Positions 1-16,426 of a stretch of 64,000 nt of DNA are shown here, piece by piece. Below the pieces are notes generated by a model. It saw only the letters and a program-made list of their open reading frames with translations, did no database searches and was not told the origin of the DNA. The stretch comes from Gammaproteobacteria bacterium (GTDB lineage: Bacteria > Pseudomonadota > Gammaproteobacteria > Arenicellales > Poriferihabitantaceae): NCBI GenBank assembly GCA_030432755.1, contig JAUILZ010000010.1:62001-126000 (forward strand), written 5' to 3'. The position numbers and the translations under genes were made by a program. Position 1 is the first letter of the stretch. Each line of letters begins with the position of its first letter.

Positions 1-3000
1 GCGTTGGCCGGCCATGGGGTAATCGCCCGCCTTCATAAAGGAGCATCTCGCCCGGTGTCAGGAACACCTGGTGGCGGCGATAGCCGTGATCCTCGATTTC
101 GAGGGGCCATTCCTCGTCGACGTCCTGCGCGATGTTGAGAATGGCGCTGATGATATGGGTTTTGGGCCGGTCCCGATGCACACCCAGCGTCGTGCCTTCA
201 TGGTAGCGTCGTATGCCGTAAATCGTCGAGGGGAGCAGCTTTTTTCCACACCACTGTTCGCAAATCGGCGCCAGCTCCACGAACAGGCGCTGCTTCAATG
301 CGTCCGGAATCGGTAGCAGGACCGAGGGCGCATTCTCATCCCTGCTGACAAGGCAATGACCATGTTCCGACATGCCTTCCTCGCCGGGAACGCTTGCCAG
401 CGCTGCGCGCAGCGCGTCCATCAGGTCCGCGGGAATGGCGGCCTTTTGAAATCCGGTTGAGGTGTAGGCCTGGATGTATTCCTGGGGATCGCGTTGATAC
501 ATCTCTCCGTCACCCAGGGACCGGAACCACTGGGTCAACAGCATCTTGTCTCCCGACCTGGGTGGCTTTCCCTGGTGCGCGGTATAGTGATTGGGAGTTC
601 CGGACGGTAGCAGGTTGTTCCAGGCAACCAGTTTTCCCTGCCTCGGCACGATTGAGAGCCCCGCCGCGGTAAATTCCGTCGATCCGCCTTCCTCCACGTC
701 GTTCAGGTATACCAGCACCGACCAGGTTCTCTGACCACCCAGTTCGTCATTGGCGTGCTTGTCAAACGTATCGGTTCCGGGCTCGAAGTAATCCGCGTGC
801 GGCTTGTATTCCTGTCCCGGAGTATAGATGTGGCCCTGCAATGCCTCGGCGTAGCTTGGATTGATGCCGAGAAGCCTGGCAATTCGAATAGTCACTTCAT
901 TGGCCAGCGGGCATTGCTCGTCATTGCGACCGAAAAAACAGGTCCGGTTGGTGCGGATTTCCGGGGTGCGCTCTCCCATCGCGGTCTCCGATGGCTGGTG
1001 ACGCGAGCGGATTTCCTCCATCAGTTCACGGCATTCCCGGGGATCCAGGAAGTCATTGACGGAATACATTTCGATCCGCGAGCTGGACACCTTGCGGATA
1101 TTCGGAATCAGCAGCCTGTCGTTGTTCGCCCGAGGCTGCTCGGAGAACGTGACGATATGCTCCAGCGGGATGCTGGGTTCCCAGTTCAGTTCGTTGCGAA
1201 TGGCGTCCCAGGGAAAATCCCTCAACACCAGTTCCTTGAACACCACGTCCCGGGAACACCCCCTGACGTGGATGCTGTGCCAGATCCAGTACTTCCATTC
1301 GTCGGGAAAGACGTGGCCTTCCGCTTGCCCGGCCGGGTGATGACTATCCGCACTCGCCGAACCCTGGCCCAGACTCGCCAGGAAATCTTCCGAGAGCGGC
1401 GGATCGGTTTCAATCGCGATCAGCGAGGATTTGCGGAAGTGAATGACCTGATCTCCCCGATCCCCCATGTTGAGGTAGACCACGCCGTCAGGATCCTGAC
1501 GCTTGTCCATGTGGGATTCGAACAGGCACCTGAGGACCGGGTTGCTTTCCTCGCACACCAGTTCCAGCGGCGGCATGTTCCTCAAATGAATCCTGAGTTC
1601 CAGCACCGCTGACTCCACGTCATTCGATATCGCGGACGCGTACTGCTCCATCAGGGTGACCGGGTCGGGAGGTATGCCATTTACTGCGTCGGGATGAGAC
1701 TCGAGGGTGCTGCAATCCAGTCCGGAATAGATGCGAAAGTCGTTCAGATCCCTCGCAGTGCCTGGTCCGTATCTGCCAAGCCGCTTTTCCGGATCACCCT
1801 GGTACAGCCAGCGAAGTCTTTCGAGCGCGGCTTCGTGAAATTGCTGGACTCTTTCGGGGTCATTGTCGTGCATGAATTTCCGGTTGGGTTCCGGGTGGAG
1901 TCGATGCCACGCCACGATCTGGCTCGGGTCGAAAAGGTCGTACCCGTGGGTGAATGACCGGATGGTCAGGGCAAACTCTTCGCCGGTGTAGAAATGACCG
2001 GGATCCTGGCGCACCTCGTTGTTCCATTGCCCGAGTGTAAACACGAAGGCACCGGATAGAAACCGGGTCCGCCGGGGAAAACGCCGGTTGTTTTCCGGGA
2101 TGACTTTCTGTGGATGATGGATGCCGCCATCGGCGTTCCATCGGTTCAAATACGCGGTGTTGACCTGTGAGAGGTCCTCGATCCTGTGAAAGGTCTTGAC
2201 ACCATTGTCCAGTGTGTACAGGGGAGGGAAACCGGTGATCAGTGGCTTGTTTGCGGGTAGTTCGCGCAACATCTTGATCAGGATGACATCCCAGGACTCT
2301 AGCATCTGGGTGTGGGCGTCGATCTGCAGGGTAAAGCGCTCGTTCTCGTAGAGTTGCTGGGCGATGTTTCTCGCCCAGCAACCACCCCGGGATGCCGTGT
2401 AGGGATACTTCACATACCGGAATCTCAGGTCCCTGGAATACCGGTCCAGGCACCCGGAGCCGGTTAGGGGATCGGACTCGTCAAACTGAAGGCAGATTCC
2501 AAACCGCAGACGCCCGGGGTGCCGCGCCCTGGTAAGACAACTTTCGATCGTCGATACCAGTTCCGGTTCGCAGTAGGCGGCAATCGCGACGAAAATCGTG
2601 TCCTCATCGCTGAGCGTGGTTTCAAATTGCCTGATGGAGGCAAACTCGTCTACCAGTCGTAGCAGGTCGCTGCAATAGGGCTCCTTCGCGTCGGTGGTCG
2701 GGAGCCTGTCCCATGGCTTGTAGGCCTGCTTCCACCAGATCTCTTCTCCGGTGGAATTGTAAATTTTCTGGCAATAGTGGACGAGAGACGCGTTCTCGAC
2801 CTTCGCGTCTGGCCACGGGGTCCATGCGGTATTGTTCTGCAGTTCAAAATGCAGAGCGTGCTCCTGGCAGGCGACGACAAACGCGAACATATCGCTCTCC
2901 CAACCTGCCGTTTTGTTCCTGATGCCCGCTGTCAATTCGATCCACCGGTCGATTATGCGTCGCAGGTCGCCACAGGTGATAAGGGCGGGCCATGTCAGCG

Positions 3001-3433
3001 GGGGCAGGCTGTCGATGTCGACGTCGCTGAGCCCTTCCATGGCCCCGCGAAAGGAGTCGCTGATACCGAAATCCTGCCAGTGTTGTCCGATGGGTAGTCC
3101 GTCTTTGACCTCGATGTTCAGCGGCTTCCTGAATACACAATCGGGATCCAGGATGAGCACTGTTCCCTCAGGCTGATACTCGTCCAGCCACTGGCGAAAC
3201 GAAAAAAGCCGGTTGTAGGGCAGGTAGTGATCGCCGCTCTCGGGATGTATGCTGGTGGGTTCTGTTCTGATGACGCGGGCATACTTGTGCAAGGGCGATT
3301 CTGTGTCCAGGTCACAGGAAACCAGCCTGACAATTTCGCCCTGCTGATTGACGCGACTCCAGCTGTATTCCAGCAGCTCTGACTGCCAGTGCACATTCGG
3401 ACCGTTGTCGGTACAGATGACGGAATGGATCAA
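1..3433 (-). CDS. Multidomain hydroxyproline glycosylation enzyme: HPAT-like GT + GT60 + two P4H-like dioxygenases (3' end cut)
   Basis: From a TTG at 3433 the minus strand stays open for 1,144 codons to the left edge, so the C-terminus is missing. I translated it by hand. Residues 1-245 resemble HPAT/SGT1 peptidyl glycosyltransferases (GT95/GT96): IHSVICTDNGPNVHWQ at 2-17, YNRLFSFRQWL at 73-83, metal motif DPD at 96-98, LVHYCQKI at 217-224. Residues 278-545 resemble GT60, the GlcNAc-transferase family of Dictyostelium Skp1 GnT1: DTIFVAIAAYCEPELV at 278, GGCWARN at 350, QIDAH at 370, GEEFALTIRSFTHGYDLF at 484. Residues 605-681 form a small domain shared with the protein at 4551-5918. Residues 780-970 are a prolyl-4-hydroxylase-like 2OG-Fe(II) dioxygenase: H879xD881, VYLNDVEEGG at 908, distal H953 and 2OG-binding K963. 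Residues 1045-1144 are a second such domain: H1086xD1088 and HGRP with H1140. AGGG lies 10 nt before the TTG. Proline hydroxylation followed by glycosylation is inferred from the families. The native acceptor is unknown. Confidence 0.9.
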   Translation of the reverse strand, partial: MIHSVICTDNGPNVHWQSELLEYSWSRVNQQGEIVRLVSCDLDTESPLHKYARVIRTEPTSIHPESGDHYLPYNRLFSFRQWLDEYQPEGTVLILDPDCVFRKPLNIEVKDGLPIGQHWQDFGISDSFRGAMEGLSDVDIDSLPPLTWPALITCGDLRRIIDRWIELTAGIRNKTAGWESDMFAFVVACQEHALHFELQNNTAWTPWPDAKVENASLVHYCQKIYNSTGEEIWWKQAYKPWDRLPTTDAKEPYCSDLLRLVDEFASIRQFETTLSDEDTIFVAIAAYCEPELVSTIESCLTRARHPGRLRFGICLQFDESDPLTGSGCLDRYSRDLRFRYVKYPYTASRGGCWARNIAQQLYENERFTLQIDAHTQMLESWDVILIKMLRELPANKPLITGFPPLYTLDNGVKTFHRIEDLSQVNTAYLNRWNADGGIHHPQKVIPENNRRFPRRTRFLSGAFVFTLGQWNNEVRQDPGHFYTGEEFALTIRSFTHGYDLFDPSQIVAWHRLHPEPNRKFMHDNDPERVQQFHEAALERLRWLYQGDPEKRLGRYGPGTARDLNDFRIYSGLDCSTLESHPDAVNGIPPDPVTLMEQYASAISNDVESAVLELRIHLRNMPPLELVCEESNPVLRCLFESHMDKRQDPDGVVYLNMGDRGDQVIHFRKSSLIAIETDPPLSEDFLASLGQGSASADSHHPAGQAEGHVFPDEWKYWIWHSIHVRGCSRDVVFKELVLRDFPWDAIRNELNWEPSIPLEHIVTFSEQPRANNDRLLIPNIRKVSSSRIEMYSVNDFLDPRECRELMEEIRSRHQPSETAMGERTPEIRTNRTCFFGRNDEQCPLANEVTIRIARLLGINPSYAEALQGHIYTPGQEYKPHADYFEPGTDTFDKHANDELGGQRTWSVLVYLNDVEEGGSTEFTAAGLSIVPRQGKLVAWNNLLPSGTPNHYTAHQGKPPRSGDKMLLTQWFRSLGDGEMYQRDPQEYIQAYTSTGFQKAAIPADLMDALRAALASVPGEEGMSEHGHCLVSRDENAPSVLLPIPDALKQRLFVELAPICEQWCGKKLLPSTIYGIRRYHEGTTLGVHRDRPKTHIISAILNIAQDVDEEWPLEIEDHGYRRHQVFLTPGEMLLYEGGRLPHGRPT

Positions 3434-3702: not shown

Positions 3703-4497
3703 ATGAAAAAAGTCGCCATCCTGGTTATTGCGGCCACCAATCAACCCGTCTACGAATACTATATCCGGAACTACTGGACCCGTCTGATTGACTACCTGAA
3801 ATCGGTGAAACCACACATCGATGTTTTTCTCCTTTGCGAAAGGGAATTCGACGTGGGTGGGTTTCCCCGGCTCCGGGACAACATCATTCATGATCGCAAC
3901 ACCGACCTGGGCAAGCTGTGTGATCCCGGTTATCACAATTTGATGGTGCCCGGCGTTCTGTCAAAGACCATACTGGCCCTGGAGTTGCTACGCAATGACT
4001 ACGACGTATTCTTCAGGACCAACCTGAGCAGCATCGTCAAGCCCTCGAAATTCGATGAATTCGTGCAGGGCAAAAAGACCTTTTCGTACTCCGGTGCGCT
4101 TGTTTTCCGGGACAGCCTCAGGAAGATGCTGGTGGAGACCGCCTGCGTTGGCCCGGAAAAGAGCGTAGGATCGCTGTCGGAGCTGGATTCCTACAAAGGA
4201 AACACCTTCGTCAGCGGATCCGGGTTTTTTCTGGGTCAGAACGATGTGGAGCACCTGCTGAACAACTTTGCGGATATCCGGTTCGACCTCATAGATGACG
4301 TTTCCATTGGCTTGATGTTCGAGAAATGCGAAACGCTCGAGGGTTTCACCCGGATTATCAATCCGGAACTGCCCCTTGCCGAGAAGCTGAAGGTTTTTGA
4401 GGGCGATGCGGCCTGCCACTTCAGGCTGCAGCATTTTCCCATTGGCGTTGCACAACAGTTCTGGGATGCCGTCGCGCATGCCGATTCCTGGAAGTGA
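3703..4497 (+). CDS. Predicted GT-A-like glycosyltransferase with an RTNLSS motif
   Basis: A 264-residue soluble protein without signal peptide or membrane segment. It opens with a Rossmann-like strand (VAILVIAATNQPVYEYY). YDVFFRTNLSSIV near residue 105 sits where a GT-A enzyme usually has its DxD strand. The same RTNLSS motif occurs, as I recall, in small predicted glycosyltransferases of algal viruses and bacteria. A later segment SGSGFFLGQNDVEHLL resembles the acceptor-side 'G-GF-lS-d-v--l' block of such enzymes, and DDVSIG follows, a common position for a catalytic Asp. It is transcribed divergently from the giant hydroxylase-glycosyltransferase and convergently with the GT77-like gene, which suggests it extends or caps the same glycan. 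Its G+C is low: one hand-counted line, 3721-3780, is 30/60. Donor and acceptor are unknown. Confidence 0.65.
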   Translation: MKKVAILVIAATNQPVYEYYIRNYWTRLIDYLKSVKPHIDVFLLCEREFDVGGFPRLRDNIIHDRNTDLGKLCDPGYHNLMVPGVLSKTILALELLRNDYDVFFRTNLSSIVKPSKFDEFVQGKKTFSYSGALVFRDSLRKMLVETACVGPEKSVGSLSELDSYKGNTFVSGSGFFLGQNDVEHLLNNFADIRFDLIDDVSIGLMFEKCETLEGFTRIINPELPLAEKLKVFEGDAACHFRLQHFPIGVAQQFWDAVAHADSWK

Positions 4498-4550
4498 TGC
4501 ATGGAATCAACAAAGTATCATCGAGCACAGGCCTTTTTCCAATACCGCTT

Positions 4551-5918
4551 TTAACCAGTGCACCTGGCGAGGGTCCGCGGATCCAGGGGTGGAGCCACCT
4601 CGACGCGGGTTATCTCTGAAGCCCTGAGGAACAGGTCGCAGCACTCGTCGTCTTCCATCAGCTGCAAGTGGATGGATGCCGGATCGTTGCCGCCCCGTTC
4701 AGACTGGAAAAACGATTTGAGAATCGCTTCCAGCACGGGGCTGGTTTTCTCGCAGTCCAGTTCGATTTTCTCGCCATCCTTCAGGTACAGGACAACCGTG
4801 TACAGGTCTTCATTTCGGGCGTTCATCGCGGTTTCTCGTGTCGTCATGGCATGGTCTGGTCGTGTTCCTGGCAGGGCTTCGCCGGTTGCCTGTGGATCCA
4901 GGTAGTCAAATCCGAAGGCATTCAGTTTGCTGGTCTTTTCATGACGGTTGCCCGTCCATGAATAGTGGAACACGACGCCATCGGCTTTCCAGTTTTTGGC
5001 GGGTGGAAGCACTCCGCGCTCGAGATTGAACAGGTGGCCGTTGAGAAACATGTGCTCCGGAAGGATATGCAGTCTCAGGATCCGTTGCTCCAGAAAGAAC
5101 CGCAGGATTCTCATGAATACGAACTGGTGCGCGCCAGCGGTCAGGATCGCCGCGGAGTTTCGCAGCGCCGTCTCGAAGAGAGACCGGGTGACCGGGTTGG
5201 ACTGCAGATAGATGAAGCCCGTATTGCCGTAGACGGGCCTGCCTGCCGGGTTAAGGCCATCGTACATGATCTGCATATCGTAGTACTCGCGACCATGCTC
5301 AAGATACTCGAATGGATCCTTCAGCCAAACCATGTCGGTATCCTGGTACAACACCGCCGCACCGAGATCCAGGGCATCGTGAATAATTGCGTTCTTGTAC
5401 AGGACTGTATTGCGAAACCATTCGTCACCAAACGATTCGGATCTGCCGGCCGGGGTGTACAGGTCGGGATCGAGAAAGTAAGACTTGACACCGAGTCCGG
5501 AAGCAAGGCGGAAGGCTTCCCCGTCAAGGCAATAAACGATCAAACGCCCCAGGGGGTTGATCCCGTTGGCGCTGCAGGAAGCCAGCCAGTTTTCGAACAT
5601 CCGAAAGTAGTTCCTGCAAAACATCATGACGACGATGTTGTCGGGACGTCCCAACTCTTCGTAGAACGAACGGATTTCTGCTTGCCGATTGTCCGTTTGT
5701 TCCCGGTACAACCGGTGAAAGGTTTCTGCCTGGTAGATCCTGTGGTCGGGAATCTCCCTGTCCAGCAGGATCAGTTCCGGGCCCACGCGGCGGGACTGGC
5801 CGGGAAGGCTGTCAGCGTGCCGCTCATGCAGTGAGTCGTGCGCAAGGGCCAATGCGCTCTCTGGAACCCGCTGGTGAAGTTCGTACCGCTGTTTTCCAGC
5901 AAGATCGGGGTTGCTCAA
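4551..5918 (-). CDS. GT77-like nucleotide-diphospho-sugar transferase (RRA/XEG113-like) with shared C-terminal domain
   Basis: 455 residues. Residues 93-345 fit the Nucleotid_trans family (PF03407, GT77). They hold DNIVVMMFCRNYFRMFENWL at 93, VYCLDGEAF at 128, the metal motif in YQDTDMVWLKDPF (DTD 193-195), GNTGFIYLQS at 231 and a closing VFHYSWTG near 316. Plant GT77 members RRA and XEG113 add arabinoses to hydroxyproline-linked arabinose on extensins; others act on pectin. That family link plus the P4H/HPAT-like fusion next door suggests glycan extension on hydroxyproline, but the sugar cannot be read from sequence. Residues 373-446 are the small domain also found in the giant neighbour. 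The start is a TTG with GGAGGA 10 nt upstream. The gene begins only 21 nt after the stop of the GMC oxidoreductase on the same strand, so read-through from the mocR-gmc unit is possible. Confidence 0.8.
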   Translation of the reverse strand: MSNPDLAGKQRYELHQRVPESALALAHDSLHERHADSLPGQSRRVGPELILLDREIPDHRIYQAETFHRLYREQTDNRQAEIRSFYEELGRPDNIVVMMFCRNYFRMFENWLASCSANGINPLGRLIVYCLDGEAFRLASGLGVKSYFLDPDLYTPAGRSESFGDEWFRNTVLYKNAIIHDALDLGAAVLYQDTDMVWLKDPFEYLEHGREYYDMQIMYDGLNPAGRPVYGNTGFIYLQSNPVTRSLFETALRNSAAILTAGAHQFVFMRILRFFLEQRILRLHILPEHMFLNGHLFNLERGVLPPAKNWKADGVVFHYSWTGNRHEKTSKLNAFGFDYLDPQATGEALPGTRPDHAMTTRETAMNARNEDLYTVVLYLKDGEKIELDCEKTSPVLEAILKSFFQSERGGNDPASIHLQLMEDDECCDLFLRASEITRVEVAPPLDPRTLARCTG

Positions 5919-5939
5919 GGGTTGTGATCCTCCAGGTTG

Positions 5940-7559
5940 TTATCGGGTTTCGGCGTCGTTCAACATCACGGCGCTCGCTTTTTCACCCACCATGACCGCC
6001 GGCGCATTGGTGTTACCCGAAGGAATCGCGGGAAATATGGAGGCATCCACCACCCGCAGGTTAGCGGTGCCGTGCACCCTGAGTGAATGGTCGACGACGT
6101 TGCCGCCATCATCCGGGCCCATTCGGCAGGTACCGCAGGGATGGAATACCGAACCGCCGCGATTGCGTATATGCGCAAGGAGTCCGTCCTCGTCCCGGAC
6201 GTCCGGTCCTGGTTCGATTTCCTCGGCGACAAGTCTGCGCATGGTGGGCGTTTGACTCAGGGTGCGGAGGAAACGGACACCCTCCAGGGTTTCGCCGACA
6301 TCCCGTTCGGTGTCGAGGTAGTTCGGCCGGATCTCGGGCGGGTCGAGGGGGTTGGTCGATCGCAGTCGGAGTGATCCGCGGCTCGTGGGCCGGCACTGAC
6401 TGACGCCGATCATGAAGGCAGGGTAGGGGTCCGGGTTCATCAGCGGCCTGGTGCCCGGTGGCGCCTTGAGATAGCTGAGCGGCTGGAAGTAGATCTGCAT
6501 GTTTGGCCGGTCGAGTTCCGGCCGGGTGCGGAAGAAGCCGCCACCCTGGTTGAGGCTGATGCCGAGTGGTCCACGGCGCGCCAGCAGGTAACGGATGCCG
6601 GCCCACAGTTTCCCGTGCCAGGGATAGAGAACGTTATTGAGCGTGGACCGGGTCGAACGATAGTAGTGATCCACACCATAATGATCCTGCAGGTTCCTGC
6701 CCACCGCCGGGTTGTCGTGGACTATGGGGATACCGAGAGCTCCCAGTTCCCGCGCGTTGCCCACGCCGGATAGCAACAGCAATTGTGGCGAGTTGATGGC
6801 GCCGGCGGCGAGGATGACCTCGCGTCCGGCGCGGATGCTTTCGATCTTGTCACCCCGGAGAATTTCCACCCCCACCGCGCGCTTGCCTTCGAGCAGTACC
6901 CTGGTCACGTGGGTACCGGTAACGACTTGCAGGTTACGCCGGTTTCTCGCGGGATGGAGATAGGCCCGCGCCGCCGAATGCCGCATGGCGTTACGGATGG
7001 TCAGGTGATAGCGGCCAACACCTTCCTGGGACTCGCCGTTGAAATCACGGTTGTGCGGCAGGCCCGCTTCGCCGCCAGCACGAATGAATTCCGATACGAG
7101 CGGATGCTGGTCGGGCTCGGGATCGCAGATGTGGAGTGGCCCGTCCGCGCCGTGATAATGCGACGCACCCAGTGGATGGGTTTCCATCTTCCGGAACAGG
7201 GGAAGCACGTCTTCCCATCCCCAGCCCGGATTCCCGGCGTGTTCCCAGTCATCGTAGTCCTCGGCCTGGCCACGAACATACACCATCGCGTTGATGCTGC
7301 TGGAACCGCCAAGCACCTTGCCCCTCGGCCAGTAGCTCTGGCGGCCCGCGATGCCGGGATCCGGTTCCGTCAGGTACATCCAGTTGACGCGGGAGTCATA
7401 GAAGGTTTTGCCATACCCCGCGGGCACCTGGATCCAGAAGCGTCGGTCATCGCCGCCGGCCTCCAGCAGCATCACGTTATGGCGGCCATTTTCCGATAAC
7501 CGGTTGGCGAGGACGCAGCCCGCCGAGCCCGCGCCGACGATGATGTAGTCAGGCGTCAT
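5940..7559 (-). CDS. GMC-family FAD oxidoreductase (choline dehydrogenase-like)
   Basis: 539 residues starting at MTPDYIIVGAGSAGCVLANR, the GxGxxG FAD-binding strand-turn-helix. Other GMC landmarks are GGSSSINAMVYVRG near residue 80, AAGAINSPQLLLLSG near 260, the catalytic His segment GSVFHPCGTCRMG near 470 and GNTNAPAVMVGEKAS at the C-terminus. The family oxidises alcohols or amino-alcohols to aldehydes or acids with FAD. The exact substrate (choline, an aryl or alkyl alcohol, a polyol) cannot be decided here. The ATG overlaps the stop of the upstream mocR-type gene by 4 nt (ATGA), so the two are translationally coupled. I chose this ATG rather than longer in-frame starts because everything upstream lies inside the regulator's coding region and does not resemble the family. 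Confidence 0.9.
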   Translation of the reverse strand: MTPDYIIVGAGSAGCVLANRLSENGRHNVMLLEAGGDDRRFWIQVPAGYGKTFYDSRVNWMYLTEPDPGIAGRQSYWPRGKVLGGSSSINAMVYVRGQAEDYDDWEHAGNPGWGWEDVLPLFRKMETHPLGASHYHGADGPLHICDPEPDQHPLVSEFIRAGGEAGLPHNRDFNGESQEGVGRYHLTIRNAMRHSAARAYLHPARNRRNLQVVTGTHVTRVLLEGKRAVGVEILRGDKIESIRAGREVILAAGAINSPQLLLLSGVGNARELGALGIPIVHDNPAVGRNLQDHYGVDHYYRSTRSTLNNVLYPWHGKLWAGIRYLLARRGPLGISLNQGGGFFRTRPELDRPNMQIYFQPLSYLKAPPGTRPLMNPDPYPAFMIGVSQCRPTSRGSLRLRSTNPLDPPEIRPNYLDTERDVGETLEGVRFLRTLSQTPTMRRLVAEEIEPGPDVRDEDGLLAHIRNRGGSVFHPCGTCRMGPDDGGNVVDHSLRVHGTANLRVVDASIFPAIPSGNTNAPAVMVGEKASAVMLNDAETR

Positions 7560-9115
7560 CGTTTTCTTCCCGTTGATTCCTTCACCGGCTTCGAAGCCTG
7601 TTTTTCCAGAACCCGGGCGAGAGTATTGACCCCGGTCGTTATCGCGCCGCGGTCGATGCCGCTGAATCCCATCAGGAGGCCGTTCTCGCGCGAACGGCCG
7701 ATGGAGAAGCGGCTGATCGGCGTGACGGTGATGTTCCTTTCCGCGGCGCCGGCTTCTACATCGGTATCCACCAGTCCCGGGGCGAGGAGGCCAATGGTAT
7801 GCAGGCCCGCATCCGTGGGCTGTACGTCGAGCAGGCCACCGAGCCTGGAGCGGGCGCATTCCATGAACGCATCATAGCGTTCGAGGTAGACCCGGCGCAT
7901 GCGGCGGATATGGGTGGCATAGTGTCCTTCCTCCATGAAGTCCGCGACCAGTGCCTGTGTGTTGGATGGCGCTCCCGGGATATACGCGGCGATCGCCGCC
8001 TGGAATACGTCCACCATGGACTCCGGCGCGAGGAAGTAACCCAGTCGCAGGGCCGGGAACAATGTCTTGCTGAAGGTGCCGACATAGAACACGCGTCCGG
8101 TGCGGTCGACGCTTTTCAGGCTCGGCAGGCGATGGTTACCATAGTAGAACTCGCCATCGAAATCGTCCTCGATGATCCAGGCATCGGCGTTGTCGGCGGC
8201 ATCCAGCAGGGCGAAGCGGCGCGCCAGGCTCATGGTGACGGCCATGGGTTGCTGGTGTACCGGGGTCACGAACGCAAGACGGAATTCCGGCGCGCTGCGC
8301 AGGCCATGCTGTACGTCGATGCCCTCGCGATCCACCCGTACAGGCACCAGTTCGGCACCGGCCGCGAGCAGGGCATTGCGCGCGCCGATGGCGCCGGGAT
8401 TCTCGATCCAGGCCTTCTCTCCCGGCTGCACGATCACCGAGGTGATCAGATGGAATGCCTGCTGCGCGCCGTTGGTTACGAAGATCTGTTCGGCCTCGCA
8501 GGGAATACCGTGGGTCGCCTTGAGATGCGCGGCAATGGCGCGCCTGAGCGGCGCGTAACCGGACGGATCGCCGTAGCCCAGGATGACGTCCCGGGGATTG
8601 CGCCAGTGGCGAGCGTTCTGCCGCGCCCAGAGCGCGAGCGGGAACAGGTCGAGGGCGGGCAGGGCGGTGGTGAACGCGCGTACTTGGTGCGGCAGGCGCT
8701 CGCCGAACGTATTCCATCGCCCGGCCGCGCCACGCGAGTGGGCGAAACACGAGGCCACGCGCGCGCGTTTCGGCGCGCGCGCATTCGCCCGCGGCGCCGG
8801 GCGCGATTGCCCGTTCACCGCCGCCAGGGGTTCCGCCTTGCCTTGCAGCGCCTCGCTGACGAATGTTCCCGCGCCCGTGGTGGAAACGAGCAGGCCTTCC
8901 GCCACCAGTTTCTCAAATGCTTCAACCACTGTGGTGCGGGAGACGCCGAGATCACGCGCCAGGGTGCGGGTGGAGGGTAGCCGGTCTCCCGCCCGCAGAC
9001 CGCCTTCAAGGACGATGTCGCGGATCGACATGGTGATCTGCGCACTCAGCGTGCGTGGCGAATCCTGGTCGATCTCGATCGCGTGCAATAGCGCGCCGGC
9101 CGCTCTCTTGACCAT
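7556..9115 (-). CDS. MocR/GabR-type GntR-family regulator with aminotransferase domain
   Basis: 519 residues from an ATG preceded by AGGGGG. An N-terminal winged helix (about 20-90; LRAGDRLPSTRTLARDLGVS then TTVVEAFEKLVAEGLL) is followed by a fold-type I aminotransferase domain. That domain has NGAQQAFH, a DDFDGEFYY segment and the PLP-lysine segment GTFSKTLFPALRLGYF. MocR proteins use the PLP domain as a sensor for an amine or amino acid and activate or repress nearby genes. It is divergent from the enolase-superfamily gene at 9275, and its 4 nt overlap with the GMC gene makes that gene a likely target. A 48 bp motif in its own promoter region is repeated before the ABC importer, which points to one regulon. 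Confidence 0.92.
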   Translation of the reverse strand: MVKRAAGALLHAIEIDQDSPRTLSAQITMSIRDIVLEGGLRAGDRLPSTRTLARDLGVSRTTVVEAFEKLVAEGLLVSTTGAGTFVSEALQGKAEPLAAVNGQSRPAPRANARAPKRARVASCFAHSRGAAGRWNTFGERLPHQVRAFTTALPALDLFPLALWARQNARHWRNPRDVILGYGDPSGYAPLRRAIAAHLKATHGIPCEAEQIFVTNGAQQAFHLITSVIVQPGEKAWIENPGAIGARNALLAAGAELVPVRVDREGIDVQHGLRSAPEFRLAFVTPVHQQPMAVTMSLARRFALLDAADNADAWIIEDDFDGEFYYGNHRLPSLKSVDRTGRVFYVGTFSKTLFPALRLGYFLAPESMVDVFQAAIAAYIPGAPSNTQALVADFMEEGHYATHIRRMRRVYLERYDAFMECARSRLGGLLDVQPTDAGLHTIGLLAPGLVDTDVEAGAAERNITVTPISRFSIGRSRENGLLMGFSGIDRGAITTGVNTLARVLEKQASKPVKESTGRKR

Positions 9116-9210: not shown

Positions 9211-9274
9211 TGACGAACTAACACCAGGCTCCAATGGAACAAGGCCACCCCGGTGGCGGCAGCAAGGCGCAGTC

Positions 9275-10375
9275 ATGAAAATAAAATCCATCGAAACCTT
9301 CAGCACCGAGTTCGTCGGCTTCGTCCGCGTCACCACCGAGGACGGGCAGCAGGGATGGGGCCAGGTCTCCACCTACCACTCGGACATCTCTTCCCTGGTG
9401 CTGCATCGCCAGGTCGCGCCCTATGCGCTGGGTACCGACATCCACGAGTTGTCCGCGCTGATGCAACTCATCCCAGAGCGTGAACACAAGTTCCCGGGAT
9501 CCTACCTGCGGCGCGCCATGGGCGGGCTCGACACCGCGGCGTGGGATCTCTATGGCAAGCTGGAGGGAAAGAGCGTCTGTGAACTGTTGGGGGGCACGCC
9601 GCGGCCGATTCGCGTCTATGCCTCGAGCATGCGGCGCGACATCACCCCGCGGGACGAGGCCGATCGCATGGTCCGGCTCAGGGATGCCCACGGTTACGAC
9701 GCCTTCAAGATCCGGGTGGGAAGCGAGTTCGGCCACGACGTCGACGAATGGCCCGGACGCACCGAGGATGTCATCGGCACAATGCGCAGCGCCCTCGGCG
9801 ACGATGCCGTGCTGCTGGCGGACGCCAACAGCTGTTTTACCGTGGATCGCGCCATCGAAGTGGGCCGGATGCTCGAGGATCGAGGCTTCTGCCACTACGA
9901 GGAGCCGTGCCCGTACTGGGAACTCGAATGGACGCGGGAAGTTACCCGCGCCCTCGACATCGACGTGACAGGGGGAGAGCAGGACTGCGACCTCGCCACC
10001 TGGCGACGCATGGCGGCGATGGGTGTGGTCGATGTACTGCAACCGGACATTCTTTACCTGGGCGGCATCACGCGTACGCTCCAGGTGGCGGACCTCGCTT
10101 TGAACAGCGGCTTGCCCTGTACGCCGCATTCCGCGAACCTTTCTCTTGTCACGGTGTTCACGCTGCACCTCATGGGCGCGATACCGGCGGCGGGTCCCTA
10201 CGTCGAGTTCTCCATCGAGGGCCTCGACTACTACCCCTGGCAGGACGGGCTCTACGAACCTGCTCTGGTAGCGCGGGATGGCAAGGTGGCAATACCCGAC
10301 GGCCCCGGCTGGGGCGTCGAGATCAATCCGGAGTGGCTCGAACGATCACGTTACCAGGTCAGCAGCCTGGACTGA
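9275..10375 (+). CDS. Enolase-superfamily enzyme (mandelate racemase/muconate lactonizing subgroup)
   Basis: 366 residues. The MR/MLE active-site residues are all visible: K145-x-R147 in AFKIRVG, the three metal ligands D183 (LADANS), E209 (YEEPCP) and E235 (GGEQD), Asp258 in [10 protein letters not shown], and His285 in TPHSAN. The His-Asp pair is typical of the mandelate racemase subgroup, whose members abstract a proton alpha to a carboxylate and often dehydrate sugar acids. The substrate is not identifiable. I placed the start at [10 protein letters not shown] because that is the usual first beta-strand of the family. Longer in-frame starts would run through the operator block at 9163-9210. 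It is divergent from mocR and upstream of the ABC importer, so a catabolic role in the same pathway is likely. Confidence 0.88.
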
Positions 10376-10411
10376 ACGATGTCACCTGTAAACGACGGGG
10401 TAAATTCAAAT

Positions 10412-10459
10412 TGGTATGGTAGATTGTTGAGAATGGACCTTTTCATGAGTCCAATTTGG
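10412..10459 (+). promoter_or_regulatory. Operator copy B upstream of the ABC importer operon
   Basis: This is the second copy of the 48 bp block, 110 nt before the ATG of the solute-binding protein. It contains a short inverted repeat, TGGAC and GTCCA, flanking CTTTTCATGA. Conservation with 9163-9210 in TGGTATGG, AATGGACCTTTT and CCAATT is strong for non-coding DNA. It probably lets the MocR regulator control the importer. Confidence 0.65.
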
Positions 10460-10568
10460 GTCGCAGACTAGTTATTACAACAGGACCGGCAGGCCGGCGG
10501 TCCCCGGTTCGCTGCGATCAACCGGCAACAGGCCTTAACCCGATCATCTCGAGCTTGAGGAGTCAAAC

Positions 10569-11651
10569 ATGAAACTGCATAACGAATATTCCGGCGGTAA
10601 ACTGGCCCACACCATCGTGGGCGCCGCCGCAGCCATGCTGGTATCCGGGGTGGCCCATGCCGATCCCGTCACCGTGGTGTCCTGGGGTGGAAGTTACGGC
10701 GAGGCACAGGACAAGGCGCTGTTCACTGATGCGTCGAAGAACTCGGGCATCGAGATCATTCGCGAGTCCGGTGCGAGCATGTCCAAGGCCTGCCTGCAGG
10801 TACAGTCGGGCGCCGTGACCTGGGACCTCGTGGTCACCGGTTCCGGTGGCGCGGCCTCGGCCGCCGCCGAGGGATGCCTGGAGAAGATCGACTACAGCGT
10901 CGTCGACGTCTCCGATTTCTATCCCAACCTGTACACCGACTACTGCGTCGGCGCGGACGTGTTCGCCACCGTGATGGCGTGGAACACGGAAAAGTATGGC
11001 GAGCCCGGCACCGAGGGCGCGCCCTCCACCTGGGCGGACTTCTTTGACGTGGAGAAATTCCCCGGCACCCGCGCCTACCGCGCCAACAACGTGGACGGCG
11101 CGCTCGAGCCGGCGCTGATGGCCGACGGCGTGCCGCCGGAACAGGTCTACGAGGTGCTCTCCACCCGCGAGGGCAAGGAGCGGGCGATCGCCAAGATCCG
11201 GGAATTGAAGCCCCATATCGCGGTGTTCTGGGAATCCGGCGCGATGCAGGCGCAACTCATGAAAGACGCCGAGGTCGACATGACCACCGGCTGGAACGGC
11301 CGCTTCGACAACGCGAAGAAGGATGGCGCCGCCGTGGGCTATACCTTCAACCAGGCGATGCTGGACTACGATTGTTTCGCCATGCCCAAGGGCGCGCCGA
11401 ACAAGGACATGGCGATGAAGTTCCTCGCCGAGGTGTCCAAGCCCGAATACCAGGCCAACCTGCCGTTCCACATCACCTACGGTCCGACCAACAAGAAGGC
11501 CTACGAGGTGACCACCGCGCCCAAGGAACTGATCGAGGCGCTGCCGTCGCATCCGAACAACGTGCCGCTGATGTTGCCGATCAATCTCGACTGGTACGCG
11601 GAGCATCGCGCGGAAGCGCTCGAGCTCTATATGGAACTGCTCAGCGAATAG
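10569..11651 (+). CDS. Polyamine-type ABC transporter periplasmic solute-binding protein
   Basis: 360 residues with GAGGAG upstream of the ATG. The N-terminus has a basic stretch, a hydrophobic core (IVGAAAAMLVSG) and a probable signal-peptidase site after VAHA-DP. The mature part opens with VTVVSWGGSYGEAQ, the hallmark of the PotD/opine class of extracellular solute-binding proteins. An ATPase and two permeases follow in the usual order for spermidine/putrescine-type importers. The ligand cannot be assigned: this class also binds opines, aminoethylphosphonate, mannityl-opines and others. The upstream MocR operator suggests an amine or amino-acid-like substrate. Confidence 0.9.
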   Translation: MKLHNEYSGGKLAHTIVGAAAAMLVSGVAHADPVTVVSWGGSYGEAQDKALFTDASKNSGIEIIRESGASMSKACLQVQSGAVTWDLVVTGSGGAASAAAEGCLEKIDYSVVDVSDFYPNLYTDYCVGADVFATVMAWNTEKYGEPGTEGAPSTWADFFDVEKFPGTRAYRANNVDGALEPALMADGVPPEQVYEVLSTREGKERAIAKIRELKPHIAVFWESGAMQAQLMKDAEVDMTTGWNGRFDNAKKDGAAVGYTFNQAMLDYDCFAMPKGAPNKDMAMKFLAEVSKPEYQANLPFHITYGPTNKKAYEVTTAPKELIEALPSHPNNVPLMLPINLDWYAEHRAEALELYMELLSE

Positions 11652-11674
11652 GCGTATAACGAAGCTTCAAAAGA

Positions 11675-11701
11675 GCCGCCGGACACCTGCTGTCCGGTGG
11701 C
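11675..11701 (+). other. Intercistronic hairpin between binding protein and ATPase genes
   Basis: GCCGCCGGACA pairs with TGTCCGGTGGC (one G-T pair) around the loop CCTGC, an 11 bp stem. No T-run follows, so a strong intrinsic terminator is unlikely. Hairpins here often protect the abundant binding-protein mRNA or attenuate read-through. That role is an inference. Confidence 0.5.
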
Positions 11702-11722
11702 CCGCCTGCATCACTGAATCGA

Positions 11723-12838
11723 TTGACGAACTCTGAAAGTAACGGCGCGGCGTCCACGGCGCTGCCCATCCACATCCAGGGGCTGACCAAGCGCTACGGC
11801 AAACTCCATGCGCTGGATGCCGTCGACCTGGATATCCGGAGCGGGGAGTTCCTTACCCTTCTCGGGCCGTCCGGTTCGGGCAAGACCACGCTCCTGATGG
11901 CCATCGCGGGCTTCAACAGGCCCGATGCCGGCAGCATCCGCTTCGGCGACGAGGAGGTCATCCTCAAGCCACCGCACAAACGCGATGTGGGCATGGTATT
12001 CCAGAGCTATGCCCTGTTCCCCCACATGTCGGTGGCCGGCAATATCGCCTTCCCGCTGAAGCTCCGTGGAGTCAGTGAAAAGGAATGTGCGGAGCGGGTG
12101 AACGAGGCGCTGGAGACGGTACAGCTTTCCGGCCTGGGCGAGCGCGGTATCGACCAACTCTCCGGCGGCCAGCGACAACGCGTGGCGCTCGCCCGCGCCT
12201 TCGTGTTCCGTCCGCGCATCCTGTTGATGGACGAGCCGCTGTCCGCCCTCGACAAGAAGCTTCGGGAGCGGATGCAGATAGAGCTCAAGCACCTGCATCG
12301 ACAACTCGGTGTCACCACAGTGTACGTCACCCATGACCAGCGCGAGGCGTTGACCATGTCCGACCGGATCGCGGTGATCAACCACGGTCGGCTGGCCCAG
12401 GTTGATACGCCGGAGGCGATCTACAACCATCCGGCCAATGCCTTCGTTGCCGACTTCATCGGTGAATCCACGATGGTACCCCTGTCACGGGATGCGTCGG
12501 GTAGCTTGTCCTTCGCCGGTCAGCGTATCACCGACAAGGCATACGAAGACACCGCGGAGGGCTGGTCCCTCGTAGTACGGCCCGAACGCCTGTTCCTGGC
12601 GGATACCGCGGGAGTCGATCCGGAGAAGACCGCAGTGTTCGACGTCACCGTGCGGGAGTCCGTGTTCCAGGGGGAAACCGCCTTCGTTCTGGTGGACATC
12701 GGCGATGACACTGAACTCGCCCTGCGCTTCGGCACCGGATCCGCGGAGGCCACCGGCGGACTCAAACCCGGCGACCGGGCTAGGGTGGGACTCCTGCGCG
12801 AGGACGCCATCGTCATACCCCGGGAACGCCAGCCGTGA
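11723..12838 (+). CDS. ABC transporter ATP-binding protein, PotA-like
   Basis: 371 residues from a TTG start. The nucleotide-binding domain shows Walker A GPSGSGKTT, the Q-loop in VFQSYALFPHMSV, signature LSGGQRQRVALARAF, Walker B ILLMDEPLSALD and the H-loop in VYVTHDQREA. A C-terminal TOBE-like domain (about 280-365; LVVRPERLFL and following) is typical of polyamine, sulfate and iron importers. It powers the inner-membrane importer formed with the two permeases downstream. The stop overlaps the GTG start of the next gene by 4 nt. Confidence 0.95.
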   Translation: MTNSESNGAASTALPIHIQGLTKRYGKLHALDAVDLDIRSGEFLTLLGPSGSGKTTLLMAIAGFNRPDAGSIRFGDEEVILKPPHKRDVGMVFQSYALFPHMSVAGNIAFPLKLRGVSEKECAERVNEALETVQLSGLGERGIDQLSGGQRQRVALARAFVFRPRILLMDEPLSALDKKLRERMQIELKHLHRQLGVTTVYVTHDQREALTMSDRIAVINHGRLAQVDTPEAIYNHPANAFVADFIGESTMVPLSRDASGSLSFAGQRITDKAYEDTAEGWSLVVRPERLFLADTAGVDPEKTAVFDVTVRESVFQGETAFVLVDIGDDTELALRFGTGSAEATGGLKPGDRARVGLLREDAIVIPRERQP

Positions 12839-13743
12839 ACCGGCCGGACGCGGCGGAGGGCGGGAACCGCGACCGCAACGCGGGCATGCTCCGGGCCCAG
12901 GAACGGCGAGAGGAGTGGGGCCTCCTGTCCCTCGCGGCGCCGGCATTGCTCGTCATCGTTCTCGTCATCCTCATCCCCGTGGGCTGGCTGTTCTACCTCT
13001 CCTTCATCGGCGGTGACGGGCAGTTCTCCCTGGAACACTATCGCAAGATGGTGGAGTACAAGTCCTATGCTCGGACTTTCGCCACCACTTTCGAGGTCAG
13101 CATCCTGACTACCGGGATCTGCATCCTGCTCGGCTACCCGCTGGCCTATTTCCTCGCGCTGCTACCGCCCCGCTGGGCGGGAATCTTCATGCTCGCGGTG
13201 CTGTTGCCGTTCTGGACCTCGCTGCTGGTGCGCACCTATGCCTGGCTGGTGCTGCTGCAGCGAAAGGGTATGCTCAACGAGTTCGCGATCCATATCGGCT
13301 TGTGGGATTCCCCGGTCAAGCTGGTGCACAACATGACCGGTACCCTCATCGGCATGGCGCATATCATGCTGCCCTTCCTCGTGCTGCCGCTCTACAGCGC
13401 GATGAAGAAGATTGACCGCGACATGATGCATGCCGCCGCCAATCTCGGCGCCTCCCCCGCGACCGCCTTCCGTCAGGTATACCTCCCGCTCTCCCTGTCG
13501 GGGATGGTGGCGGGTTCGCTGATCGTCTTCATTCTCTGCCTCGGATTCTACGTCACCCCGGCAGTGCTGGGTGGCGGCCGGGTGATCATGGTCTCCACCC
13601 AGATCACGGCGATCCTCGAGAACCAGTTCGATTGGGGGGCGGCAAGCGCGCTCGGCGTGGTGTTGCTGGTTGCAACGCTGCTCGTGCTCTACATCGCCGC
13701 GCGCTTCTTCAAGTTCGACGCGGCGTTATTCGGCAAGGGCTGA
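12835..13743 (+). CDS. ABC transporter permease, PotB-like
   Basis: 302 residues from a GTG overlapping the previous stop. About six hydrophobic segments are visible, the first being LLVIVLVILIPVGWLFYLSFI after a charged cytoplasmic N-terminus of about 35 residues. The EAA loop that docks on the ATPase is AAANLGASPATAFRQVYLPLSLSG near residue 200. It forms the translocation pore with the second permease. The stop shares one base with the next start (TGATG). Confidence 0.93.
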   Translation: MNRPDAAEGGNRDRNAGMLRAQERREEWGLLSLAAPALLVIVLVILIPVGWLFYLSFIGGDGQFSLEHYRKMVEYKSYARTFATTFEVSILTTGICILLGYPLAYFLALLPPRWAGIFMLAVLLPFWTSLLVRTYAWLVLLQRKGMLNEFAIHIGLWDSPVKLVHNMTGTLIGMAHIMLPFLVLPLYSAMKKIDRDMMHAAANLGASPATAFRQVYLPLSLSGMVAGSLIVFILCLGFYVTPAVLGGGRVIMVSTQITAILENQFDWGAASALGVVLLVATLLVLYIAARFFKFDAALFGKG

Positions 13744-14558
13744 TGAACTGGTGGACCACCCCCGCTTCGGATACCCAGGTCACCCATGGCGACCGGTTCT
13801 GGCTGTACGTGGTCGCGGTGATCATCATGTTGCTGCTGGTGATACCGACCTTCATCGTCATTCCGATGTCGTTCTCGGGCTCCCAGTACCTGGAATTCCC
13901 ACCGAACGAATGGTCCACGCGCTGGTATGGCGAGTACTTCGGCTCGGCGAAGTGGATGCGCGCCACGGTGACCTCTCTCCAGGTCGGCGTACTCACGATG
14001 CTCGTGGCGACTCCCCTCGGCACCATGGCCGCCTACGCGCTGTTCGCCTCCGGGCACAGGGCGACGCGGGCGTTCTTCATGCTGCTGATTACGCCGATGA
14101 TCGTGCCGGTGATCCTGGTGGCCATCGGCGCGTTCTACGCCTTCGGCCGGGTAGGTCTCAACAACTCCATCTCTGGCCTGGTTCTGGCGCACACTGCCAT
14201 GGCGACGCCGCTGGTGATCATCGTCATCACCGCGGCGCTGCGCTCATACGATCTCAACCAGGAACGTGTCGCGCGCAGCCTCGGCGCCACGCGGCTAAAG
14301 GCATTCTTCCAGATCACCTTGCCGCAGATCCGGTTTTCCGTGGTCACCGCGGCGCTGCTGTCCTTCCTCACCTCCTTCGACGAGGTCATCATCGCGATCT
14401 TCGTCTCCGGCGGCGCCAACGCGACCCTGACCAAGCACATGTTCAGCTCGCTCCGGGACTTCATCGATCCCACCATCGCGGCGATCTCGACGATCATGGT
14501 CATCGTTTCGTCGGTATTACTGTTGCTGACGCAGTTCCTCGGTAGACGGGGCAAGTAG
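13743..14558 (+). CDS. ABC transporter permease, PotC-like
   Basis: 271 residues from the ATG that overlaps the preceding stop by one base. It has six predicted membrane segments (first around YVVAVIIMLLLVIPTFIVIP) and an EAA motif, RSLGATRLKAFFQITLPQIR, near residue 175. It is the second half of the importer pore and the last gene of the operon. A longer in-frame reading upstream overlaps PotB out of frame and is rejected. Confidence 0.93.
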   Translation: MNWWTTPASDTQVTHGDRFWLYVVAVIIMLLLVIPTFIVIPMSFSGSQYLEFPPNEWSTRWYGEYFGSAKWMRATVTSLQVGVLTMLVATPLGTMAAYALFASGHRATRAFFMLLITPMIVPVILVAIGAFYAFGRVGLNNSISGLVLAHTAMATPLVIIVITAALRSYDLNQERVARSLGATRLKAFFQITLPQIRFSVVTAALLSFLTSFDEVIIAIFVSGGANATLTKHMFSSLRDFIDPTIAAISTIMVIVSSVLLLLTQFLGRRGK

Positions 14559-14591
14559 GGCGCGCATCCAGGGTGCCGCGACAGCGGTGCC

Positions 14592-15392
14592 TCAACCGCT
14601 CGCCACCGCGCCGCCGACCAGCATCGGCAGGCCGAATATCGCCCAGTCGTTCAGCACGTGCACGCCGGTGGAGACCCAGATGTTTTTGGTCAAGAGGTAG
14701 GGCAGTAGCAGCACGATGCGGACCGGTACCAGCCCGATCAGCGCCTGGGGAAGATGCCAGTGGTACGTCGGCAGGTGCGCGAGCGCGAAGATCACCGCGG
14801 CGGCGAGCGCCGCCAGCGCGACGGCAGGCTTGCGCCCCATCCCGCGCTGCGTCAGCCAGCAGAGGATCGCGAGAAAGGGCAGGATGGTGAACAGTTCCTC
14901 GCCAAAGAGCTGTACCCCGGTACGCAGGAAGAACAGAATCTTCTCCAGTCCGGTGGCCGCAGCAACCGTTGCGCCGGCGGGGTTTACCTCGTGGGAGAAG
15001 AATTTCACGATGAGCAATCCGACGGCGATGGTCACGATCCAGTTGAGCACGAAGAACAGGACGATCCACAGCCAGTCGATCCGGCGCATGCGCCGGAACA
15101 GGGCCTTCCAGCCGCTGCCGGCGGCATAAACCAGCGCCGCCAGCGGGATCGCGACGAACAGCATCGCGGGGATGAGCATTGCCGGTCCTTGCGGGAGGAT
15201 GCCCGGCGCAAGAATGAGGACGAAGAACCCGGCCGCTACCGCGGCCATGACGATCCACCATCGCGGGCCGTCTATTGCCACCGGGTCTTCATGGTAGTAG
15301 GGGAAATCGTCTCCCCGGCGTTCGAAGCGGAAGAAATCTCGCGGCGAGGCTTCGGTTGCTTGCCTGGCGCCCTGGTTATCGGTGATGGGCAT
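14592..15392 (-). CDS. CPBP-family intramembrane protease-like protein
   Basis: 266 residues from an ATG with AGGAG four bases upstream; a TTG further out has no advantage. It is strongly hydrophobic with about seven to eight membrane segments. The CPBP (Abi, Rce1-like) motifs are present in a variant form: FGEELFTILPF (the EE pair, but no Arg where EExxxR is usual), FALAHLP (Fxx-H) and a late HVLND. The glutamates and histidines would bind zinc. Members are involved in bacteriocin self-immunity or membrane protein processing, but this one is unassigned. The gene converges on the ABC operon and lies just downstream of the CmcJ-like gene on the same strand. Confidence 0.8.
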   Translation of the reverse strand: MPITDNQGARQATEASPRDFFRFERRGDDFPYYHEDPVAIDGPRWWIVMAAVAAGFFVLILAPGILPQGPAMLIPAMLFVAIPLAALVYAAGSGWKALFRRMRRIDWLWIVLFFVLNWIVTIAVGLLIVKFFSHEVNPAGATVAAATGLEKILFFLRTGVQLFGEELFTILPFLAILCWLTQRGMGRKPAVALAALAAAVIFALAHLPTYHWHLPQALIGLVPVRIVLLLPYLLTKNIWVSTGVHVLNDWAIFGLPMLVGGAVASG

Positions 15393-15445
15393 GCGTCTCC
15401 TCGTCAATTGAAGGGCAATCAGGACCTTTATTTGCCAATTTCAGG

Positions 15446-16426
15446 TTACTGGAACAAGGCCACGCATCGCACCTCGATGCTCCAGCGATCCGGCGCGTCC
15501 ACCGGGGAACCGGGGTCGCGGAAGGCGCTGTGGAAACTGAAGGTGCAGGGGGCGTCGGGATTATCGCCATCCGCCCGCTTGCCCGCCGAACTCGCGAACC
15601 CGCCATCGGAATCCCATTGCTTGATGAGCAGCGCCTCGTCACGGGTGGCCGCGGGATAGAAGTACCAGTGGTGGCGATCGGTATGACGGGCGAAGTAGTT
15701 TTCGCCGATGCGGTTGGCGTAGTGGATCTCGAACACCACGAGGTCACCGGGATCCACGGTGGCGGCGTCGCATAGCGCCAGCGGATTGACGGCAACGGGT
15801 TCGCCGCTGATGTTGCGCCACACGTTGATGATGGCGAAGCGGCCGCCGTCCAGTGCCTGTGTCACTTCATCGTCCCGCAACAACGCTGTTTCGTCTGGTA
15901 GAACCGATGCCAGGGTGTCATTGCCCGTGGGCGGACGCGCGAGGTCTCGCAGGCGCTGGGGTGCGCTGGTGAGGGTGTAGTCGCCGTGGACCACGGAAAT
16001 CGGCTGCTGTATACCCTGACCACCGCGAATGCGTAGTCCTTGTGCGCTACCGGACGCCGAGCGGATGTTGTGATCAAAAGCAACGACCCTGTCCGCACCG
16101 ATAGCATCCTGTACCAGTCCGGCGCAGCGGGGGTAATAGCGACGGACGACGTCCTCATGATCGAGAAAGTCCGGTAATCCTCTTCCCATGGGGTCGACCC
16201 GGCGCTCGAAGCCGTTGCGATGCAGCACGAGGTGGTCGCCTGAGGGCAACGCGCGCGCATCCCTTATCGGCAGCGTGTGCGCCTCGAGATCGGCGCCCAC
16301 CCAGGGCTCGTCGGCGCCATCGGCCAGGCGGCGGGTGAATACCTTGCCATTGCGGTAAAGCGACGGCGCTACTGTCTTCCGCAGGTAATGCAGTTCGCCG
16401 GTCCGGGGGTTTTCGACGGGATTCAC
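15446..16426 (-). CDS. CmcJ/NvfI-family oxidoreductase
   Basis: 326 residues from a GTG. The order of conserved blocks matches the CmcJ/NvfI/AsaB family: LHRNGFERR, YYPRCAGLVQDAIGADRVVA then FDHNIR, VHGDYT, FAIINVWRNI, PLALCDA, RHTDRHHWYFYP, DEALLIKQWDS and a final SIEVRCVALF. Characterised relatives take part in secondary-metabolite oxidation, such as cephamycin 7-alpha-methoxylation and fungal isomerisations. Bacterial homologues outside clusters are mostly unassigned, and no secondary-metabolite synthase is visible here. His and Asp residues that could form an iron site are present in the DHN and HGD segments, but I cannot define the triad with certainty. Confidence 0.82.
   Translation of the reverse strand: MNPVENPRTGELHYLRKTVAPSLYRNGKVFTRRLADGADEPWVGADLEAHTLPIRDARALPSGDHLVLHRNGFERRVDPMGRGLPDFLDHEDVVRRYYPRCAGLVQDAIGADRVVAFDHNIRSASGSAQGLRIRGGQGIQQPISVVHGDYTLTSAPQRLRDLARPPTGNDTLASVLPDETALLRDDEVTQALDGGRFAIINVWRNISGEPVAVNPLALCDAATVDPGDLVVFEIHYANRIGENYFARHTDRHHWYFYPAATRDEALLIKQWDSDGGFASSAGKRADGDNPDAPCTFSFHSAFRDPGSPVDAPDRWSIEVRCVALFQ

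Follow-up and report, generated by a model that had tools for sequence, protein, structure and literature searches.

Our analyses point to a bacterial enzyme of four putative catalytic domains, encoded at the start of a 64,000-nucleotide stretch of gammaproteobacterial DNA (hereafter the window; positions 62001-126000 of contig C10, genome G000), whose predicted task, shared with the conserved gene cluster around it, is the hydroxylation and glycosylation of prolines in a small, probably exported peptide resembling arabinogalactan proteins (AGPs). We assign this prediction a probability of roughly 0.68. The enzyme unites glycosyltransferase domains of the HPAT and GT60 types, a small domain that we call LINK, a prolyl 4-hydroxylase (P4H) domain and a second 2-oxoglutarate (2OG)/Fe(II) dioxygenase domain, DIOX2, and a proline-rich candidate substrate is encoded in its neighbourhood.

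A preliminary description of the window had proposed an uninterrupted frame holding HPAT/SGT1-like, GT60-like and small linking domains, followed by two dioxygenase domains with complete HxD...H sets, and these features were borne out. The gene is a single open reading frame (ORF), complete on the contig at L008:11906-15433 of the minus strand (an L008 position minus 12000 gives the window position), and codes for 1175 residues with its own stop codon; the missing 3' end, i.e. the last 31 codons and the stop, occupies C10:61906-62001, only the final base of which lies inside the window. Three domains scored above their Pfam cut-offs: HPAT (PF23452, residues 3-230, 45.1 bits, cut-off 23.9), GlcNAc (PF11397, residues 339-547, 153 bits, cut-off 21) and, for the first dioxygenase, 2OG-FeII_Oxy_3 (PF13640, residues 866-971, 60-61 bits, cut-off 27). 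DIOX2 had no Pfam match in this protein, but modelled alone it adopted a 2OG/Fe(II) oxygenase fold (predicted local distance difference test, pLDDT, 93). Both HxD...H sets were exactly as described, and the linking domain corresponds to LINK, which is common to other enzymes of the cluster. Carrying the metal triad and the 2OG-binding lysine, the first dioxygenase domain is a predicted prolyl 4-hydroxylase; its top structural match was an algal P4H in complex with a (Ser-Pro)5 peptide, and the eight distinct PDB sequences matched by the enzyme were all prolyl 4-hydroxylases (3gze is labelled 'Predicted protein' among the sequence matches and algal P4H in the structural comparison). The profile score and a fold resembling that of polypeptide N-acetylgalactosamine (GalNAc)-transferases in structure comparison likewise predict a GT60-type enzyme for the second domain.

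Searched against about 5.8 billion proteins, the enzyme returned 62 matches. We aligned 38 full-length proteins with the same three Pfam domains, query included, and since the other 37 carry these domains and are 47-75 percent identical to the subject enzyme, the architecture is not a product of chance. Residues D96/D98 of HPAT, D372/H374 of GT60, H879/D881/H953/K963 of P4H and H1086/D1088/H1140 of DIOX2 were invariant in 38/38 proteins, the D-x-D and D-x-H pairs being donor-binding motifs of these transferases. Other arrangements among the 62 matches joined O-FucT to GT60 (P0058-P0060) or to HPAT (P0061). Of the 398 genomes scanned in the phylum, only the source genome contained PF23452; the family of G458 had it in two of 199, both already known, and the control genomes in none of 14. 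The full-length enzyme occurred in three genomes besides its own in a genus-to-order sample of 60. A scan of one genome per species (84,980 species), confined to two peptide patterns, yielded 14 HPAT-type loci; a search for the HPAT-PqqD gene on plasmids gave no match.

The candidate substrate begins with a charged segment containing RR, continues with a hydrophobic stretch and the sequence W-S-K-P-V-I-E-S-V-L-L-P-A-H-A, and ends in a tail where T-P, A-P and P-P are abundant, an AHA↓Q site lying between leader and tail. Proline-rich proteins were found beside HPAT-type genes in 10 of the 14 HPAT-bearing genomes, namely our own and the 13 behind the 14 loci of the species scan (positive: own, L029, L030, L032, L035, L036, L037, where the contig end cuts the protein off, L040, L042 and L043), and in own, L030 and L032 the gene stands immediately beside O-FucT on the same strand. 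The sites are of the PAHA type in L008, L029, L030, L032, L035, L037 and L043, VFA↓Q in L036 and L040, and AQA↓Q in L042, whose 196-residue protein has a Tat-like stretch and a proline-rich tail besides a PqqD domain (52.7 bits, cut-off 23.4). Three further enzyme/leader pairs (P0025/P0063, P0012/P0068 and P0018/P0077) are inferred to share one contig each because their longest contigs are equal in length (62850, 6826 and 21215, respectively). At L029:13607-14311 and L043:12762-13475 the leader lies on a short ORF of its own and the proline-rich part on a second one after it, in frame with the first; stop-codon readthrough was considered for these loci, but two and three stops, respectively, lie between leader and tail. 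Both proline-rich ORFs have a C-terminal part with two Cys, and Cys-containing residues beyond the tail occur in the L029, L035 and L043 homologues.

Six pooled tails contained 37 percent Pro, 21 percent Thr, 10 percent Ser and 9.5 percent Ala. Because GC-rich DNA yields many chance proline-rich frames, proline content alone was not used as a criterion; an initial comparison of three cluster tails with 23 others gave p 0.005, with L056 omitted and L077 missed by its pattern, and a strict scan (at least seven [STAV]P within 30 residues) missed the own tail. We relied instead on the Finding-AGP thresholds (Pro/Ala/Ser/Thr content, glycomodule index and number; PMC5266747), re-implemented in our own script without the signal-peptide filter of that paper. 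All ten cluster proline-rich proteins passed, as did 39 of the 120 leader-family proteins listed (of 172 matches) and 30 of 1205 six-frame ORFs, cluster proteins being included in both counts. Thirteen of the passing ORFs came from L034, L041 and L042; L042:3711-4301 is a genuine candidate, and the other 12 were discarded, one being the L034 GT60 gene and 11 being judged wrong-frame by eye. A plant P4H motif (PMC7960765) fitted 43 of 155 prolines in nine tails, where shuffles averaged 23 and 0/1000 reached 43, and only 2 of 242 prolines in the enzymes of the own cluster.

LINK, of about 80 residues, is carried by the subject enzyme, homologues of a 371-residue neighbour, GT77-type proteins, the GT60-GT60 protein of L035 and the OFucT-HPAT protein of L037, and sits on the 2OG oxygenase in L036 and L040. 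A LINK profile built from 14 sequences produced 18 matches in 16 genomes, 18/18 on the cluster contigs of nine genomes, and none in the seven genomes lacking an HPAT match; as the profile rows find themselves by construction, it is the absence elsewhere that counts. PqqD accompanied HPAT in 65 of 104 matches of an HPAT profile search, which included the alphaproteobacteria Tepidamorphus sp. 3E244 and Oricola sp., and was present in L036, L040, P0185, P0194 and L042; alphaproteobacteria have it joined to HPAT, L042 to the proline-rich protein. In pathways for ribosomally synthesized and post-translationally modified peptides (RiPPs), leader peptides are bound by PqqD-related domains (PMC8068269).

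The coordinates of the enzyme, its domains and its neighbours are collected in Table 1. The 371-residue and 241-residue proteins had no Pfam match and are putative sulfotransferases, judging by sequence motifs. Relatives of P264 occur in two further clusters (L043 and L039), and an Rfam search returned nothing.

Table 1. Enzyme gene, encoded domains and neighbouring genes
Feature	Window	L008	Strand	Remarks
Four-catalyst enzyme gene	2..3433	11906-15433	-	Single open frame, TTG start, 3' end cut by window edge
HPAT-family (PF23452) glycosyltransferase domain	2648..3433		-	Residues 1-262
GT60/PF11397 peptide N-acetylglucosamine (GlcNAc)-transferase-type domain	1679..2623		-	Residues 271-585
LINK domain of the enzyme	1364..1618		-	Residues 606-690
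Prolyl-4-hydroxylase domain	506..1111		-	Residues 775-976
DIOX2 (second 2OG/Fe(II) dioxygenase domain)	2..478		-	In-window residues 986-1144 of 1175
Second GT60		3996-5150
371-residue protein		5160-6275		C-terminal LINK
GT2/GT92-type protein		6443-8380
241-residue protein		8385-9110		Sulfotransferase-like
Sulfotransfer_2 protein		9226-9912
Small proline-rich protein		10234-10545		Candidate substrate; outside window
O-FucT		10692-11924
P264, putative glycosyltransferase	3703..4497	15703-16497	+	Galactosyl_T PF01762 below cut-off
GT77-type protein	4551..5918	16551-17918	-	C-terminal LINK; PF03407, 81 bits, cut-off 22
LINK domain of GT77-type protein	4554..4799		-

Four other loci with the full-length enzyme (L029, L030, L032 and L043) all retain the second GT60, the 371-residue homologue and O-FucT, and GT77, P264 and sulfotransferase-like relatives are present in some of them. 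The same domains are split otherwise in L035 and in a metagenome-assembled genome represented by two contigs, L033 and L037; there they form a GT60-GT60 protein, an OFucT-HPAT protein and a P4H-DIOX2 protein. In an apparent operon of the alphaproteobacterial records L036 and L040 the proline-rich leader protein comes first, followed by a PqqD-bearing protein, a DIOX2-type protein, an O-FucT-type protein below cut-off, LINK plus 2OG oxygenase (Pfam-tested in L036), GT60 and HPAT. HPAT adjoins a DIOX2-O-FucT fusion in L041 (Planctomycetota) and is flanked by GT60 genes in L034 (Acidimicrobiales), while L042 (Anaerolineae) carries HPAT (87 bits), the 196-residue PqqD protein, PF03214 (164 bits, cut-off 23.8) and DUF6065 in that order at L042:2763-5983, where the contig then ends. 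Two-domain P4H-DIOX2 proteins were also observed at L050:6248-8002 and L051:569-1957, in genomes (G024 and G003) without HPAT or LINK matches, so that the hydroxylase pair also occurs alone. The O-FucT-type proteins at L036:10259-12361 and L040:3015-5039 have a C-terminal P-loop region like HPr kinase (a weak Pfam match in L040); both genes belong to the run that holds the PqqD-bearing enzyme. Homologues of the 371-residue LINK protein at L030:15318-17354 and L032:6200-8296 have about 300 extra C-terminal residues with no above-cut-off Pfam match. An NAD-dependent sugar epimerase gene lies between the GT77 and O-FucT genes at L029:6829-7800, a possible donor-sugar supply for that cluster, and G460 has a second GT60/DIOX2 region on contigs 20 and 32.

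According to the mechanism we propose, the leader-bearing substrate would be made in the cytosol, where the P4H domain, and possibly DIOX2 too, would hydroxylate its prolines and the HPAT and GT60 domains would add the first sugars to hydroxyproline, perhaps also to Ser/Thr. The second GT60, O-FucT, GT77 and GT92-type enzymes may then extend the glycan and the sulfotransferase-type enzymes sulfate it, with LINK on several enzymes, and PqqD in other lineages, presumably holding the enzymes to the substrate or to one another, before the finished glycoprotein is exported, likely via Tat. We assign modification to the cytosol, ahead of export, because membrane-like segments are missing from eight of the nine own cluster enzymes, the exception being O-FucT with a single hydrophobic stretch at residue 45. 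Fusing successive steps would favour processivity, as has been suggested for the fused Skp1 enzymes of protists (PMC8724618). That the whole constitutes a complete bacterial assembly line for hydroxyproline glycoproteins, gathered by docking domains, with sulfation and Tat export, and a counterpart of plant AGPs or extensins, stands in our judgement at about even odds.

The leader belongs to a multicopy family with the pattern RR...GGG...W.KPVV.SV.LPAHA↓Q and short, varied cargo (L053-L082), several members of which (L057, L067, L073 and L080) have another PAHA- or PxYA-like site further on. The member P0104 reached the Tat model TIGR01409 (19.5, cut-off 16.7), and the L042 protein fell under that cut-off at 12.5; TatC was present in 8/8 cluster genomes, but also in 11/14 controls. 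Among leader proteins, AGP thresholds were passed by 4/5 inside clusters and 4/23 outside (Fisher p 0.015), in a non-random sample of 28 resolved loci out of 30 fetched from 110 matches, the profile having been built from cluster proteins.

Several observations weigh against the substrate and export that we propose. The leader family was found in 13 of 20 chosen genomes, at 2-20 copies each and with varied cargo, which led us to reject the leader as a cluster-specific tag; of the four non-cluster leader proteins that pass the AGP thresholds (4/23), three (L060, L063 and L072) are in genomes without an enzyme match. The own leader protein does not match TIGR01409, its hydropathy peak is low (0.75), and its tail is, at 29 percent, the lowest in proline of the three cluster tails. 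L034, L038, L039 and L041 (4/14) have no proline-rich neighbour, the contigs of L038 and L039 being under 6 kb; leader and proline-rich part are separate ORFs in L029 and L043; and the L042 genome, searched with the subject protein, gave HPAT only and no hydroxylase. PqqD was not found by Pfam in the own cluster, nor PF03214, the UDP-arabinopyranose mutase family, in the own genome (83 percent complete).

Different explanations might account for these genes. A mucin-like system, in which GT60, the HPAT/Ser-galactosyltransferase-type domain and O-FucT glycosylate Ser/Thr of the tail and prolyl hydroxylation is a separate, sugar-free stiffening step, would suit the Thr and Ser contents of the pooled tails (21 and 10 percent), the resemblance of the GT60 domain to Ser/Thr GalNAc-transferases, the Ser/Thr specificity of eukaryotic O-FucT and the only eukaryotic-named match of the HPAT profile, a peptidyl serine galactosyltransferase. 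We nevertheless consider it rather unlikely, as P4H goes together with HPAT-type domains, by fusion or clustering, in loci of the window's type, a UDP-arabinopyranose-mutase-family gene lies in the HPAT neighbourhood of L042, and the Skp1 enzyme uses hydroxyproline (PMC8724618); that enzyme belongs to GT60.

Alternatively, the cluster could yield a RiPP-like small secreted modified peptide rather than a surface glycoprotein, the leader serving as recognition tag. The small substrates, the PqqD fusions seen in other lineages, with HPAT or with the proline-rich protein, and the confinement of LINK to clusters agree with this; the absence of a Pfam match to PqqD in the window's cluster, the Tat-model match of P0104 and the continuation of the L029, L035 and L043 homologues past the tail with Cys make it improbable, and we did not file the cluster as RiPP, no RiPP recognition element/PqqD domain being found in it by Pfam. 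We likewise give little credence to a chance adjacency of leader gene and enzyme, with the latter acting on another host protein or a surface polysaccharide: leader genes are common in these genomes and a Pseudomonas putida P4H modifies EF-Tu (PMC7864055), but in own, L030 and L032 the proline-rich gene is the immediate same-strand neighbour of O-FucT, it turns up again in alphaproteobacterial and Anaerolineae loci, and leader proteins pass the AGP thresholds more often within clusters (4/5 vs 4/23). The coupled hydroxylation and glycosylation of an AGP-like peptide remains the reading that we favour.

In plants, hydroxyproline-rich glycoproteins are made by P4H, HPAT/GT95, Ser-galactosyltransferase and GT77 (RRA/XEG113) enzymes, Gnt1 of the protist Skp1 pathway is a GT60 enzyme, and Bacillus P4H and Pseudomonas PPHD are stand-alone enzymes. 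The cluster resembles the plant pathway (PMC5371791, PMC8724618) in its P4H, HPAT-family and GT77-type enzymes and in an AP/SP/TP-repeat substrate meeting the AGP thresholds, but its enzymes are fused and free of membrane-like segments, its leader is Tat-like, its partners include GT60 and O-FucT, and no arabinose mutase was found in the own genome. With the Skp1 pathway (PhyA, Gnt1/GT60, PgtA, AgtA/GT77) it shares a cytosolic P4H, GT60 and GT77, and fucose occurs in the Skp1 glycan; Skp1, however, is eukaryotic, folded and modified at a single proline (PMC8724618), whereas here the target would be the repeat tail of a leader-bearing peptide, and HPAT, O-FucT and sulfotransferase-type genes are added. 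Because substrate, localisation and partners differ, membership in either pathway is not claimed. Bacterial P4Hs have the same fold and metal/2OG residues, although structurally the algal enzyme bound to a Ser-Pro peptide comes closer, and RiPP pathways with PqqD-type elements share a leader-bearing substrate and, in alphaproteobacteria and L042, PqqD fusions, whereas the window's cluster has LINK, no PqqD and a signal-peptide-like leader.

That proline hydroxylation and glycosylation are coupled, as the preliminary description put forward, gains support as a prediction from the domains and the neighbouring proline-rich candidate. Its premise that the eukaryotic activities are separate proteins is not always true: Skp1-pathway enzyme pairs are often fused in protists, and a dual-function P4H/GlcNAc-transferase is named in a reference title within PMC8724618, a protist precedent for the fusion. 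No bacterial hydroxyproline-glycosylation system was recognised in full-text literature searches, most subscription papers lying outside their reach; a cacaoidin paper combining PqqD and hydroxyproline was set aside as a precedent, since it concerns tyrosine glycosylation (PMC8068269). The proposal of two hydroxyproline-type glycosyltransferases stood as regards the families, both recovered by Pfam, but not as regards the sugar, which HPAT-family membership does not fix because PF03214 occurred in only 1 of 14 HPAT-bearing genomes (0/8 in a first set, 1/6 in a second). Since in that genome (G462, Anaerolineae, L042) the gene adjoins the proline-rich gene, which adjoins HPAT, arabinose is plausible in that lineage; it is doubtful in the own genome.

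The reviews consulted assign hydroxyproline-linked glycans to plants, algae and protists. Our analysis defines a hitherto unnamed putative docking domain, LINK, and a widespread leader-peptide family. If the prediction is true, hydroxyproline-linked glycan chemistry would extend to prokaryotes, with enzyme and candidate substrate encoded side by side, offering a soluble and genetically simple bacterial route to hydroxyproline glycoproteins, and the origin of the plant and protist pathways would become directly testable.

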